A stretch of DNA of 38,823 bases from a virus. The notes beneath the pieces are model-generated. The model was not told the DNA's origin. It made no database searches and saw only the letters and a program-made list of their open reading frames with translations. Positions 3,789 through 38,823 of this stretch are shown here, piece after piece; position 1 is the stretch's first letter, and each line of letters opens with the position of its first letter. A program made the position numbers and the translations under genes. The stretch is taken from positions 1 through 38,823 of the IMG/VR virus record IMGVR_UViG_3300048817_000012; one strand, written 5' to 3'.

Positions 3789-3792
3789 AAAT

Positions 3793-3858
3793 TGGAGACG
3801 ACGGGGTGAGTCGAACGGGTTTGCAGCCCGCTGCCTGTTACCGTTCGGCCACGTCGTC
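3793..3858 (-). tRNA. tRNA-Cys (GCA), shortened, lacks half of the T-arm
   Basis: Only 66 nt with CCA. Acceptor GACGACG/CGTCGTC, D-arm, anticodon stem GCGGG/CCCGT with loop CTGCAAA, and U73 (a Cys identity element) are intact. Between the anticodon stem and the acceptor only 11 nt remain instead of about 22: the variable loop and the 5' strand of the T-stem are gone, although TTCGACT survives. It may be a decayed gene or a tRNA working without a normal T-arm. Confidence 0.8.
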
Positions 3859-3866
3859 ATAGGAAT

Positions 3867-4445: not shown

Positions 4446-4449
4446 GTGT

Positions 4450-4486
4450 GAGTTATAGATTTTCAGCGTTGAGTTATAGGTTTTCA
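4450..4486. repeat. short tandem repeat in tRNA spacer
   Basis: Two 16 nt units (4450-4465 and 4471-4486) that differ at one base, spaced 21 nt apart, fill the 42 nt spacer before tRNA-Gly. AT-rich compared with the flanking tRNAs. Confidence 0.7.
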
Positions 4487-4487
4487 T

Positions 4488-4573: not shown

Positions 4574-4578
4574 GTTGT

Positions 4579-4663
4579 TGGTTGCGCGAGCGCGGATTTG
4601 CACCGGCGTCGGCAGCTTATGAGGCTGCATAGGGGCTTGGTTACCTACTCCTACTATCGCGCA
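4579..4663 (-). tRNA. atypical tRNA with CAT anticodon and enlarged D region
   Basis: The 7 bp acceptor TGCGCGA/TCGCGCA, anticodon stem GCAGC/GCTGC with loop CTCATAA, A73 and CCA are clear. The stretch between acceptor and anticodon stem is 28 nt instead of about 19, and can fold as GTAGG/CCTAT with a 16 nt loop. The T-stem has a bulged C and the T-loop begins TG rather than TT. It could be Met or Ile2, or a decayed gene. Confidence 0.7.
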
Positions 4664-4666
4664 AAG

Positions 4667-4832: not shown

Positions 4833-4907
4833 TGGCGTTCCCGGGGTGAGTTGAACACCCGCCTCCCGCTTCGGAGGCGGGTGATCTATCCATTAAACTA
4901 CGGGAAC
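4833..4907 (-). tRNA. tRNA-Arg (CCG)
   Basis: Loop CTCCGAA in stem CCCGC/GCGGG, G73, encoded CCA. Its nucleotides 8-10 (TAG) are the stop codon of the upstream RusA-like gene. A 73 nt spacer without recognisable features separates it from tRNA-Ser(CGA). Confidence 0.95.
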
Positions 4908-5221
4908 ATAATTCCTATCTTCTCAAGAAAAACAATCTGTCGGTCGTCCTTCAACAACGTCGGACCTTTGCCGGTCTTGCCATCGAGCGCCTGAAACAGC
5001 GCGGTGACGAGGTTGTCAAGATCGGGTCCGGTCGGGTCGATGAACAACGCCGACAACGAAATTTGATGCGACATCTGTTCGAGGCCCGCTTCTTGAGCCG
5101 CGCGCCAAATCTCGACGCGGTATTGTTCAAGCACCTTGCGGTGGATGCGCCGATGCGGCGCGCCACGCACATTAGCGATCAAGAGACGCCGACGATGGTC
5201 GTACTGCAACTGCACGCGCAT
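4898..5221 (-). CDS. RusA-like Holliday junction resolvase inside the tRNA array
   Basis: The 107-residue protein matches the small RusA family (about 120 residues), dimeric nucleases that cut Holliday junctions and branched DNA during replication or packaging. The acidic motif D67-L-D69-N70 and the D92-D93-x-x-I motif near the C-terminus fit the metal-binding site; the usual Lys after DxDN is replaced by Thr73. The ATG at 5221 has GGAG 9 nt upstream, just after the CCA of the previous tRNA. The stop codon TAG lies inside the following tRNA-Arg and equals its nucleotides 8-10. Family call is good; activity not certain given the missing Lys. Confidence 0.75.
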   Translation of the reverse strand: MRVQLQYDHRRRLLIANVRGAPHRRIHRKVLEQYRVEIWRAAQEAGLEQMSHQISLSALFIDPTGPDLDNLVTALFQALDGKTGKGPTLLKDDRQIVFLEKIGIMFP

Positions 5222-5471: not shown

Positions 5472-5885
5472 TTACCACTCGTATCCGCCTGCGAACCAAC
5501 AATCCTTTTTCTGGCCATTCTTTGCTGGCGTCAGGCGCAACGAGATTTCAGTTTTCCCGCCCCACGTATACGGCGGGAGCCTGTAGACTTTGCCGGTTTG
5601 CGGCAAGTAAACCATGACGCAATCAACTTCAAGCGGGCTGTATTTTCGTTGACCGCCGCGTCTATGGTTCGTTTGAGTTTTTACGCGAACCGATCCGTTA
5701 CTCGCCGGTTTTCCATCCGCGTATTTTACTTGCACACGCGAGAGCTTCCCGCCCTCGTCGATGATTAAATCGTACCGATCAAAATCACCGACTGGCCGAC
5801 TTACAGTGATCCGTTTTTCAAATGCACGGAAGATGACTTTCATCAAGGCTAACTCGCCTTTGAGACTGGTTTCGGACACTGGCAT
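5472..5885 (-). CDS. PD-(D/E)XK nuclease, homing-endonuclease-like
   Basis: The 137-residue protein has the small PD-(D/E)XK layout of the family that includes the intron-encoded I-Ssp6803I: E11 in the first helix, D39 in DRYDLII, then Q52-V-K54 in a beta strand, followed by basic residues likely to touch DNA. It sits between tRNA-Asp and tRNA-Pro, and I-Ssp6803I is also known from a tRNA gene. The ATG at 5885 follows the CCA of tRNA-Asp by 2 nt; the Shine-Dalgarno AGGAG, 7 nt upstream, is the acceptor stem of that tRNA, so tRNA maturation would cut it off. Substrate unknown; a defence or decay role is possible. Confidence 0.75.
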   Translation of the reverse strand: MPVSETSLKGELALMKVIFRAFEKRITVSRPVGDFDRYDLIIDEGGKLSRVQVKYADGKPASNGSVRVKTQTNHRRGGQRKYSPLEVDCVMVYLPQTGKVYRLPPYTWGGKTEISLRLTPAKNGQKKDCWFAGGYEW

Positions 5886-5887
5886 TT

Positions 5888-5961
5888 TGGCGCTCCTAGG
5901 GAGAATTGAACTCCCGTTCTCCGCTCGACAGGCGGGCATTCTACCATTAAATTATAGGAGC
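5888..5961 (-). tRNA. tRNA-Asp (GTC)
   Basis: Loop CTGTCGA, perfect acceptor GCTCCTA/TAGGAGC, G73, encoded CCA. The 3' acceptor strand doubles as the ribosome site of the nuclease gene. Confidence 0.95.
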
Positions 5962-5987
5962 CTCAAGAGTGAGCTACAGCCGCAATT

Positions 5988-6076: not shown

Positions 6077-6152
6077 TGGTGGGCACTCGGGGGATCGAAC
6101 CCCGGACGTTCGGATTAAGAGTCCGACACTCTACCAACTGAGTTAAGTGCCC
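6077..6152 (-). tRNA. tRNA-Lys (CTT)
   Basis: Loop CTCTTAA, perfect acceptor GGGCACT/AGTGCCC, A73, encoded CCA. Nucleotides 8-10 (TAA) form the stop codon of the upstream small gene. No TTT tRNA-Lys is present. Confidence 0.95.
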
Positions 6153-6355
6153 GGGAAGAAGTGCTCCATGATGACGGTCATGGCGCTGAAAGTGTCCTCG
6201 ACCTTGCGTACCTGCTCCCCGAGACCGGCATCCGGGGGAGGAGGAAATGGTGAACCTGTGTGGTACTGCCCCACTTGCGGACGGGTTAAAAGGCCGTTGC
6301 CGAACTTCTCTGGCTTTACGCTACAGGTCCGGCATCGTTTGAGTGGATCGCTCAT
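6143..6355 (-). CDS. small unknown protein inside the tRNA array
   Basis: The 70-residue product has one CxxC near the N-terminus, a Pro-rich middle (FPPPP) and a hydrophobic C-terminal stretch. The ATG has GGAG 8 nt upstream and overlaps the stop of the preceding small gene (ATGA), so the two are translationally coupled. The stop TAA is nucleotides 8-10 of tRNA-Lys. The codons for the CxxC contain 12 bases (6320-6331) identical to the 5' end of tRNA-Ile (6657-6668), perhaps a tRNA remnant. No family recognised. Confidence 0.6.
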   Translation of the reverse strand: MSDPLKRCRTCSVKPEKFGNGLLTRPQVGQYHTGSPFPPPPDAGLGEQVRKVEDTFSAMTVIMEHFFPGT

Positions 6356-6576
6356 TTTGTTTGCTCCGTTGTTTGGTGGACCAGTGAGGAATTGAACCTC
6401 CATGCGGGCCCCGTCGAGCCTTCGCCGCGCGCTATTTGATCCAACGCGCTGTTGATCTGCCCGCATATTTCTTCCGCCGTGGCCCGGCGCGTGCCGGGGG
6501 ATATGTGGAAGTTGCGGGTGCGCCGGTTCGGGTCATCAAACAAGCGCGCCATCAGTTTCTCTTGCTCGGGTCCCAT
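6352..6576 (-). CDS. small unknown protein whose C-terminus is encoded by a tRNA fragment
   Basis: The 74-residue protein has a charged, probably helical body. Residues of about 58-68 are encoded by a 30 bp copy of the tRNA-Ile 3' end, read through in frame. The ATG at 6576 is preferred because AGGAG lies 7 nt before it; another ATG at 6582 is too close to that site. The gene begins 17 nt after the CCA of tRNA-Ile and ends in an ATGA overlap with the next gene. No function can be assigned. Confidence 0.6.
   Translation of the reverse strand: MGPEQEKLMARLFDDPNRRTRNFHISPGTRRATAEEICGQINSALDQIARGEGSTGPAWRFNSSLVHQTTEQTK
6374..6403 (-). repeat. duplicated 3' end of tRNA-Ile
   Basis: Thirty bases identical to 6594-6623, the CCA, acceptor and T-arm part of tRNA-Ile(GAT). 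The remainder of a tRNA is missing. The two copies are direct repeats 220 bp apart, the pattern left when an element enters at a tRNA 3' end. Confidence 0.85.
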
Positions 6577-6593
6577 GTTCATTCTCCTGTTGT

Positions 6594-6667
6594 TGGTGGA
6601 CCAGTGAGGAATTGAACCTCCATCGAGCGGTTATCAGCCGCTTGCTCTACCGTTGAGCTACAGGTCC
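6594..6667 (-). tRNA. tRNA-Ile (GAT)
   Basis: Loop CTGATAA with GCGG/CCGC stem, perfect acceptor GGACCTG/CTGGTCC apart from one wobble, A73, encoded CCA. Its 3' 30 bases are repeated at 6374-6403. Confidence 0.95.
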
Positions 6668-37554: not shown

Positions 37555-37583
37555 CATTAACCATGTTTAGGGGCTGCTGTCAA
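37555..37583 (-). promoter_or_regulatory. promoter with late motif, before the small membrane protein
   Basis: TTGACA (37578-37583) and TTAATG (37555-37560) are 17 nt apart, with ATGG before the -10 (complete ATGGTTAATG). The best match to a sigma70-type promoter in the head module, lying in the 52 bp gap after the repeat-protein gene. Confidence 0.75.
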
Positions 37584-38823
37584 GTCTTTGGTGGCGGCTT
37601 CCGCGCCCAAGTATGGGCGGGAGTGGTGAGGTTTCTATCGGCGATTGAGCGCGGGGGGACCATGCTGCGGACGCCTCTATCGAAGCTCTTTCCACGGAAC
37701 AATTCCAAAGTATCGGCATAGACCGCCTTCGGGGCCGATCCACCCCCGCGCCCCATCTGCTCTTGCTCCGGCGGAGTCGGCGGCGGCGCGTTGGGGTTGA
37801 ATACGATCAGGTTCGCATCGCTCCCGTTCATTGAGAACGATCCGGTCTCGCACGATAGAATGTGCGTCATAAGTAAGCCTGCGGGCGCGCCGGTCATTTC
37901 GTAGGACCCGGCCGCAATCCCGAACTCCACGACTTCCTCGAACTCGGCGGTTGCGCCGGTCATCGAGTAGGACCCGGCCTGCGCATCGAGCACTCGGTTG
38001 TAGAGAAGCGCCGCGTCGCTGCCGGTCATCGAGTAGGACCCGACCGCTTCGTCGAGGTACGCGCCGCTCAAAACTTGAAGGAGCGCATCGCTGCCGGTGA
38101 TCGAGTAGGACCCGACCGCTTCGTCGAGCACGCGATTGTAAAGGAGGGCCGCGTCGTCGCCCGTAATCGAGTAGGACCCGACCGCGAAGTCGAGTAGGTG
38201 CGCGGTGAGCAACGCGGCCGCATCGCCCGTGATCGTGTACGCGCCCGGAGTCAGCCCAAGCATATCGGCGAAGGCCAACGACGATCCGGTGATCGCGTAG
38301 GTGCCGACCGCGAAATCCAACACTCGATTGTAGAGAAGCGCGGCGGCGTCGCCCGTGATCGCATAGGTGCCCTCCGCGAACCCGAGCGTATCGGCGAAGG
38401 CCAACGGCGAGCCGGTGATTGCATAAGTGCCGACCGCGAAATCCAACACGCGATTGTAGAGAAGCGCCGCCGCATCGCCCATGATCGCGTAGGTGCCGAC
38501 CGCTTCGTCTAGCACACGCGCAATGAACAGCGCCGCCGCGTCGCCCGTGATCGTGTACGCGCCCGGCGCGAACCCGAGCGTATAGCCGAAGGCCAGCGGG
38601 GAACCTGTGATTGCGTAGGTGCCGACTGCGAAATCCAACACACGCTTGCGGAGAAGCGCCGCCGCGTCACCCGTGATCGTGTACGCGCCCGGCGCGAGCC
38701 CGAGCATATCGGCGAAGGCCAACGGCGATCCGGTGATCGCGTAGGTGCCGACCGCGAAGTCGAGAACGTGATGATAAAGAAGCGCAGCGGCGTCACCCGT
38801 GATCGCGTAGGTGCCGACCGCCA
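37580..38823 (-). CDS. repeat protein with GxYxITG units, truncated at window edge
   Basis: The frame is open to the right edge, so the start is outside the window. The visible 414 codons contain 16 units, mostly 22 residues long, of the type G-[ST]-Y-x-[IM]-[TM]-G then about 5 residues, an Ala/Leu stretch, and LD-AV. Some units are 20 residues (with SPLAFADTLG) or 24. Alternate units differ, so the array grew by doubling pairs. The last about 70 residues are Pro-rich and basic (no repeat). Similar repeats occur in alphaproteobacterial phage virion proteins; they probably form a beta-solenoid or rod. Function is not known. Confidence 0.75.
   Translation of the reverse strand, partial: AVGTYAITGDAAALLYHHVLDFAVGTYAITGSPLAFADMLGLAPGAYTITGDAAALLRKRVLDFAVGTYAITGSPLAFGYTLGFAPGAYTITGDAAALFIARVLDEAVGTYAIMGDAAALLYNRVLDFAVGTYAITGSPLAFADTLGFAEGTYAITGDAAALLYNRVLDFAVGTYAITGSSLAFADMLGLTPGAYTITGDAAALLTAHLLDFAVGSYSITGDDAALLYNRVLDEAVGSYSITGSDALLQVLSGAYLDEAVGSYSMTGSDAALLYNRVLDAQAGSYSMTGATAEFEEVVEFGIAAGSYEMTGAPAGLLMTHILSCETGSFSMNGSDANLIVFNPNAPPPTPPEQEQMGRGGGSAPKAVYADTLELFRGKSFDRGVRSMVPPRSIADRNLTTPAHTWARKPPPKT
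37580..38823. repeat. tandem DNA repeats of about 60-66 bp
   Basis: The codons for the GxYxITG units are also very similar as DNA (for example ATCGCGTAGGTGCCGACCGC on the plus strand recurs many times), which shows recent unit duplication. Length may vary between relatives. Confidence 0.8.

Follow-up and report, generated by a model that had tools for sequence, protein, structure and literature searches.

How did the 3' end of a tRNA-Ile gene come to stand a second time, inside a short coding gene, within the tRNA array of an uncultured tailed phage? The source is a 38.8-kb fragment (an IMG/VR record), analysed here at its full length of 38,823 nucleotides and called the window. The fragment carries at least 31 tRNA genes; 31 were called by ARAGORN, between 3057 and 7316 and all on the minus strand. 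The gaps of the array hold four coding genes, encoding a RusA-like protein, a PD-(D/E)XK endonuclease and two small proteins, the products of gene 1 and gene 2. Read on the minus strand, tRNA-Ile (6667-6594) is followed by gene 1 (start at 6576 or 6582, stop at 6352), gene 2 (6355-6143) and tRNA-Lys. The features of concern are the following.

6594 to 6667, minus strand: intact tRNA-Ile (GAT), found by ARAGORN; Rfam tRNA 62.3 bits
6593 to 6623, minus strand: first copy of a 31-bp repeat, the tRNA-Ile 3' end, from an exact-repeat search
6373 to 6403, minus strand: second copy of the 31-bp repeat, a 5'-truncated tRNA-Ile stub, from the exact-repeat search; no 5' tRNA remnant before it
6352 to 6576, minus strand: gene 1, an ORF of 74 aa (76 aa from the ATG at 6582), assessed by codon score; its last 17 or so codons are the stub and the tail of the stub
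6143 to 6355, minus strand: gene 2, an ORF of 70 aa with a CxxC-like N-terminus and its leader directly after the CCA of the stub; codon score 0.078 per codon
6320 to 6331, minus strand: 12-bp match to the 5' end of tRNA-Ile (11 bp within the tRNA), p=0.15; no permuted-tRNA fold
5472 to 5885, minus strand: PD-(D/E)XK endonuclease related to I-Ssp6803I, same array; PF11645 E=3.8e-24, PDB 2ost E=8.5e-8
4898 to 5221, minus strand: RusA-like resolvase gene behind tRNA-Met, same array; phrog_140 E=0.0013, Pfam RusA below cut-off

The repeated tRNA-Ile end and its array

The earlier note had reported that the last 30 bases of tRNA-Ile recur exactly at 6374-6403, 220 bp away, and that the copy is read in frame within a coding gene. 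Both observations were confirmed: the copy lies inside the end of the 74-aa ORF, and the full direct repeat, TTGGTGGACCAGTGAGGAATTGAACCTCCAT, is 31 bp long, at 6373-6403 and 6593-6623 with an offset of 220. It covers the final 30 nt of tRNA-Ile with one further base: the last two bases of the variable loop, the T-arm, the 3' strand of the acceptor stem, the CCA and one A. By simple arithmetic, about 1e-10 exact repeats of 31 bp would be expected by chance in 38.8 kb. A longer exact repeat was found in the window only within a visibly repetitive gene at 37.9-38.8 kb. The protein encoded there (37580-38722, minus strand) is made of many near-identical repeats (TYAITGDAAALL...) and is the source of the other long repeats of the window.

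The boundaries of the stub are sharp, at the start of the T-arm and one base after the CCA, and the two copies are 100% identical over the 31 bp. The 190 bp before the stub match none of the array's tRNAs significantly (p=0.59), and the first 44 nt of tRNA-Ile have left no trace there. In 12 comparison arrays with about 190 tRNAs, no copy of a tRNA 3' end that reaches the CCA and measures at least 16 bp lay outside a tRNA. These arrays came from four relatives of the phage and from eight named phages, among the latter Lacusarx, Yut3, CcrRogue, T5, XacN1 and FelixO1. The few internal tRNA matches in these arrays may be unannotated tRNAs or tRNA-like RNAs.

Other parts of the array are also irregular. 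Between tRNA-Ser(CGA) and tRNA-Tyr (4578-4664, minus strand) the sequence folds like a tRNA, with CAT in the anticodon loop and ACCA at the end of the outer stem; neither ARAGORN nor Rfam called it, and it is perhaps an initiator tRNA (fMet-like). A tRNA-Cys-like sequence (GCA) lacking part of the variable region and of the T-arm lies between tRNA-Gln and tRNA-Arg (3792-3862, minus strand). The 26-nt spacer before tRNA-Asp (5962-5987, minus strand) contains GCGGCTGTAGCTCA, which resembles a tRNA 5' end without the remainder (p=0.045), and the 42-nt spacer between tRNA-Tyr and tRNA-Gly (4446-4487, minus strand) is made up of a direct repeat about 20 nt long, GAAAAYCTATAACTCA.

The two small genes and the stub

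Coding potential was scored with a codon model built from 20 genes of the window, under which non-coding frames had their 95th percentile at 0.041 bits per codon and true genes their 5th percentile at 0.070. Gene 1 up to the stub scored 0.085 and gene 2 scored 0.078, values above the non-coding limit and near the lower limit of true genes, which weakly supports that both are probably coding. The stub and its tail scored -0.262, so that gene 1 looks like a short gene ending in a tRNA fragment. Its stop codon TGA overlaps the ATG of gene 2 (ATGA) and, as the frame runs through the stub to this stop, the last residues are probably a junk tail. Across gene 2 (6147-6395) cysteine-pair motifs are present on both strands, CRTC on the minus and CPTCGRVK on the plus strand, and codon usage favours the minus strand.

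Gene 1 has no relatives in Pfam, PHROGs, NCBIfam, phages, viral_contigs or genome_contigs. For gene 2 none were found in Pfam, PHROGs, NCBIfam, phages and viral_contigs apart from one weak match, in phage CcrRogue (E=0.007); the best PHROGs E-value for the two genes was 0.08. The regions of gene 1 and gene 2 show no DNA similarity to each other (p=0.77). The sequence after the second copy of the repeat thus differs from that after the first, and a plain tandem duplication of 220 bp is excluded.

The two CCAs are followed by similar leaders, ACAACAGGAG and AACAACGGAG, which resemble each other no more than do other ribosome-binding leaders in this genome. A common leader, ACAACGGAG, after tRNA-Ile, the stub and tRNA-Met was considered as a special link and rejected, the resemblance being no greater than that among other leaders.

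It had also been claimed that another 12 bases, from the 5' end of tRNA-Ile, recur in the gene after the stub. The match exists, but only 11 of its bases belong to the tRNA and it is unsupported as a tRNA remnant: when the best local match of the 6320-6331 region to any tRNA of the array was compared with shuffled sequences, p was 0.15. These bases encode the motif C-R-T-C (CxxC), and the resemblance is probably due to chance. The match matters for one reading of the stub, according to which the stub would be functional: it would serve gene 2 as a tRNA-like element for processing or as a leader, or it would be one half of a permuted tRNA, the other half being the 12-bp match. The leader of gene 2 does follow the stub directly, and the 3' piece does precede the 5' piece as in permuted tRNAs. 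However, besides the insignificance of the match, the region folds no better than shuffles (z=+0.44), the covariance model reports no tRNA there, and there is no anticodon arm, so that the two pieces do not jointly form the full tRNA expected of a permuted gene. A permuted or split tRNA was therefore rejected, and we find a functional stub extremely hard to believe. The stub is without tRNA function.

How gene 1 may have entered the array

An intact tRNA, a stub running exactly from T-arm to CCA, and an intervening gene that shows no relation to gene 2 are together best fitted by an insertion or exchange. A single step of this kind would account for all of these features and for the perfect identity of the copies. 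We consider it an even chance that recombination or illegitimate repair within the tRNA-Ile gene placed gene 1 where it now lies, between that tRNA and gene 2. Before the event, tRNA-Ile was probably followed by a short leader, gene 2 and tRNA-Lys. A break or template switch inside tRNA-Ile would have been repaired with DNA in which gene 1 follows a tRNA-Ile 3' end; gene 1 would thereby have come to lie behind an intact tRNA, and the displaced 3' end would have become the 31-bp stub before gene 2. We infer this direction of the event. Recombination between the 31-bp copies should reverse it, deleting 220 bp and restoring tRNA-Ile followed by gene 2.

The enzymes encoded in the array count for the recombination reading, both the RusA-like gene and the relative of I-Ssp6803I. 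The domain of the latter and its similarity to I-Ssp6803I place it in a homing-endonuclease family; it is 137 residues long and aligns with I-Ssp6803I (PDB 2ost) over 103 residues with the YDL and VQVK motifs kept. I-Ssp6803I comes from an intron of a cyanobacterial tRNA-fMet gene, whereas the array endonuclease is free-standing in a phage array. Its ribosome-binding site (AGGAG; 5885-5895, minus strand) is part of the tRNA-Asp 3' end, and a transcript may therefore either mature into the tRNA or be translated into the endonuclease, but not both. The presence of such an enzyme in the same array makes a homing or repair event plausible. We infer that this or some other endonuclease may have taken part; that this very enzyme made the junction is a guess. 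On a bolder reading, gene 1 and its leader would form a minimal cassette, itself non-autonomous, that travels from one tRNA 3' end to another in phage arrays. The I-Ssp6803I-like endonuclease of the array would mobilise it in trans by cutting within tRNA anticodon arms, and stubs from T-arm to CCA would be left behind. We regard this as speculative and very improbable.

The earlier note had likened the pattern to the traces of integrases or homing events at tRNA 3' ends, with a segment far too small to carry an integrase of its own. Insertion at the tRNA end holds as the best fit, with homing or repair plausible, while an integrase gained no positive support and is not needed for an insertion or exchange inside tRNA-Ile. 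Under that alternative a tyrosine recombinase would have acted site-specifically at the tRNA-Ile 3' end, and a 220-bp remnant would be left, with the stub as its far att copy. The segment from T-arm to CCA is a usual attachment segment of tyrosine recombinases and, as in integrative elements at tRNA 3' ends, a direct repeat of the tRNA end flanks the insert on both sides and the tRNA is intact. Unlike such elements, this one is only 220 bp long and its target is the phage's own tRNA. No tyrosine recombinase domain (PF00589) was found in the 38.8-kb record, itself a fragment; the insert has one gene of about 57 codons; and a host attachment site was rejected, the 27-nt tRNA 3' end being absent from the bacterial contigs of genome_contigs. 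Integration of this type is very unlikely.

Duplication followed by decay is a more serious alternative, one that we hold possible but doubtful. In this case tRNA-Ile would have been duplicated, with or without a neighbouring gene, and the first 44 nt of the second copy would have been deleted or overprinted by gene 1. The array does hold other degenerate or incomplete tRNAs (the Cys-like and fMet-like sequences described above), which show that tRNAs do decay in it, duplication and loss of tRNAs are common in viral clusters (PMC7589089), and similar leaders would also be expected if a tRNA were duplicated together with its leader. Nevertheless the stub is fully identical and sharp-edged, with no decaying 5' part, the genes behind the two tRNA ends are unrelated, and a second step is required that removed 44 nt tracelessly.

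Relatives that might hold an empty site or a donor were sought with gene 1, gene 2 and the endonuclease, and with the 30-bp repeat and variant patterns. No relative covering the segment of tRNA-Ile, gene 1 and gene 2 was found in the collections searched, neither an empty-site nor a donor genome, and the repeat patterns had no match in viral_contigs. The best contig (36 kb, 78% protein identity in a neighbouring gene) ends inside tRNA-Thr genes. Contigs with an identical capsid protein come from data sets 3300037178, 3300037114, 3300037180 and 3300037201; the array was unmatched in the two such contigs that were searched. The arrays of relatives with capsid proteins about 77-81% identical are much smaller, with further tRNAs behind tRNA-Ile, and these relatives are too distant to serve as evidence of an empty site. 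Three contigs matched in a search for tRNA-Ile-like 5' ends elsewhere, and all were unrelated. As the site is seen in a single contig, with no independent contig covering it and a repeat about as long as an assembly word, two strain variants might have been joined across the short repeat during metagenome assembly. We give this little credence: both junctions of the stub would still have to exist in some genome, and 220 bp should fit within one read pair.

Relation to known rearrangements of phage tRNA clusters

Rearrangement of phage tRNA clusters by endonucleases is documented for SegB and has been proposed for HNH enzymes. Recombination driven by SegB in T6 joins tRNA-Tyr to a truncated neighbouring gene (PMC13096335), and in T4 illegitimate break repair with microhomology junctions has been described (PMC2988022). 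The locus resembles the segmental amplification by SegB of T6 in the proposed recombination within a tRNA cluster, the junction of a tRNA with the truncated 3' end of a small gene and the endonuclease in the cluster. In T6, however, whole units of tRNA-Tyr and segB of 718 bp repeat in tandem (PMC13096335), whereas in this phage the repeat is confined to the tRNA 3' end and the flanking genes differ; the enzyme families differ too, PD-(D/E)XK in this array and GIY-YIG for T6 SegB. Small ORFs and endonucleases between tRNA genes are likewise seen with the free-standing homing endonucleases SegB of T4 and Heg of T5. Moreover, hegC and hegD of T5 also read into the following tRNA, as gene 1 reads into the stub, although the following tRNA sequences are whole in length in T5 and gene 1 is not an endonuclease.

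The junction is a new example of the already known mosaicism of phage tRNA arrays, a modest and putative case of array rearrangement paired with a predicted I-Ssp6803I-like enzyme. Unique small genes abound in phage tRNA arrays, and how they arrive there is mostly guessed; a junction as sharp and recent-looking as this one, marked by a repeated tRNA 3' end, would be one concrete case of such an arrival.
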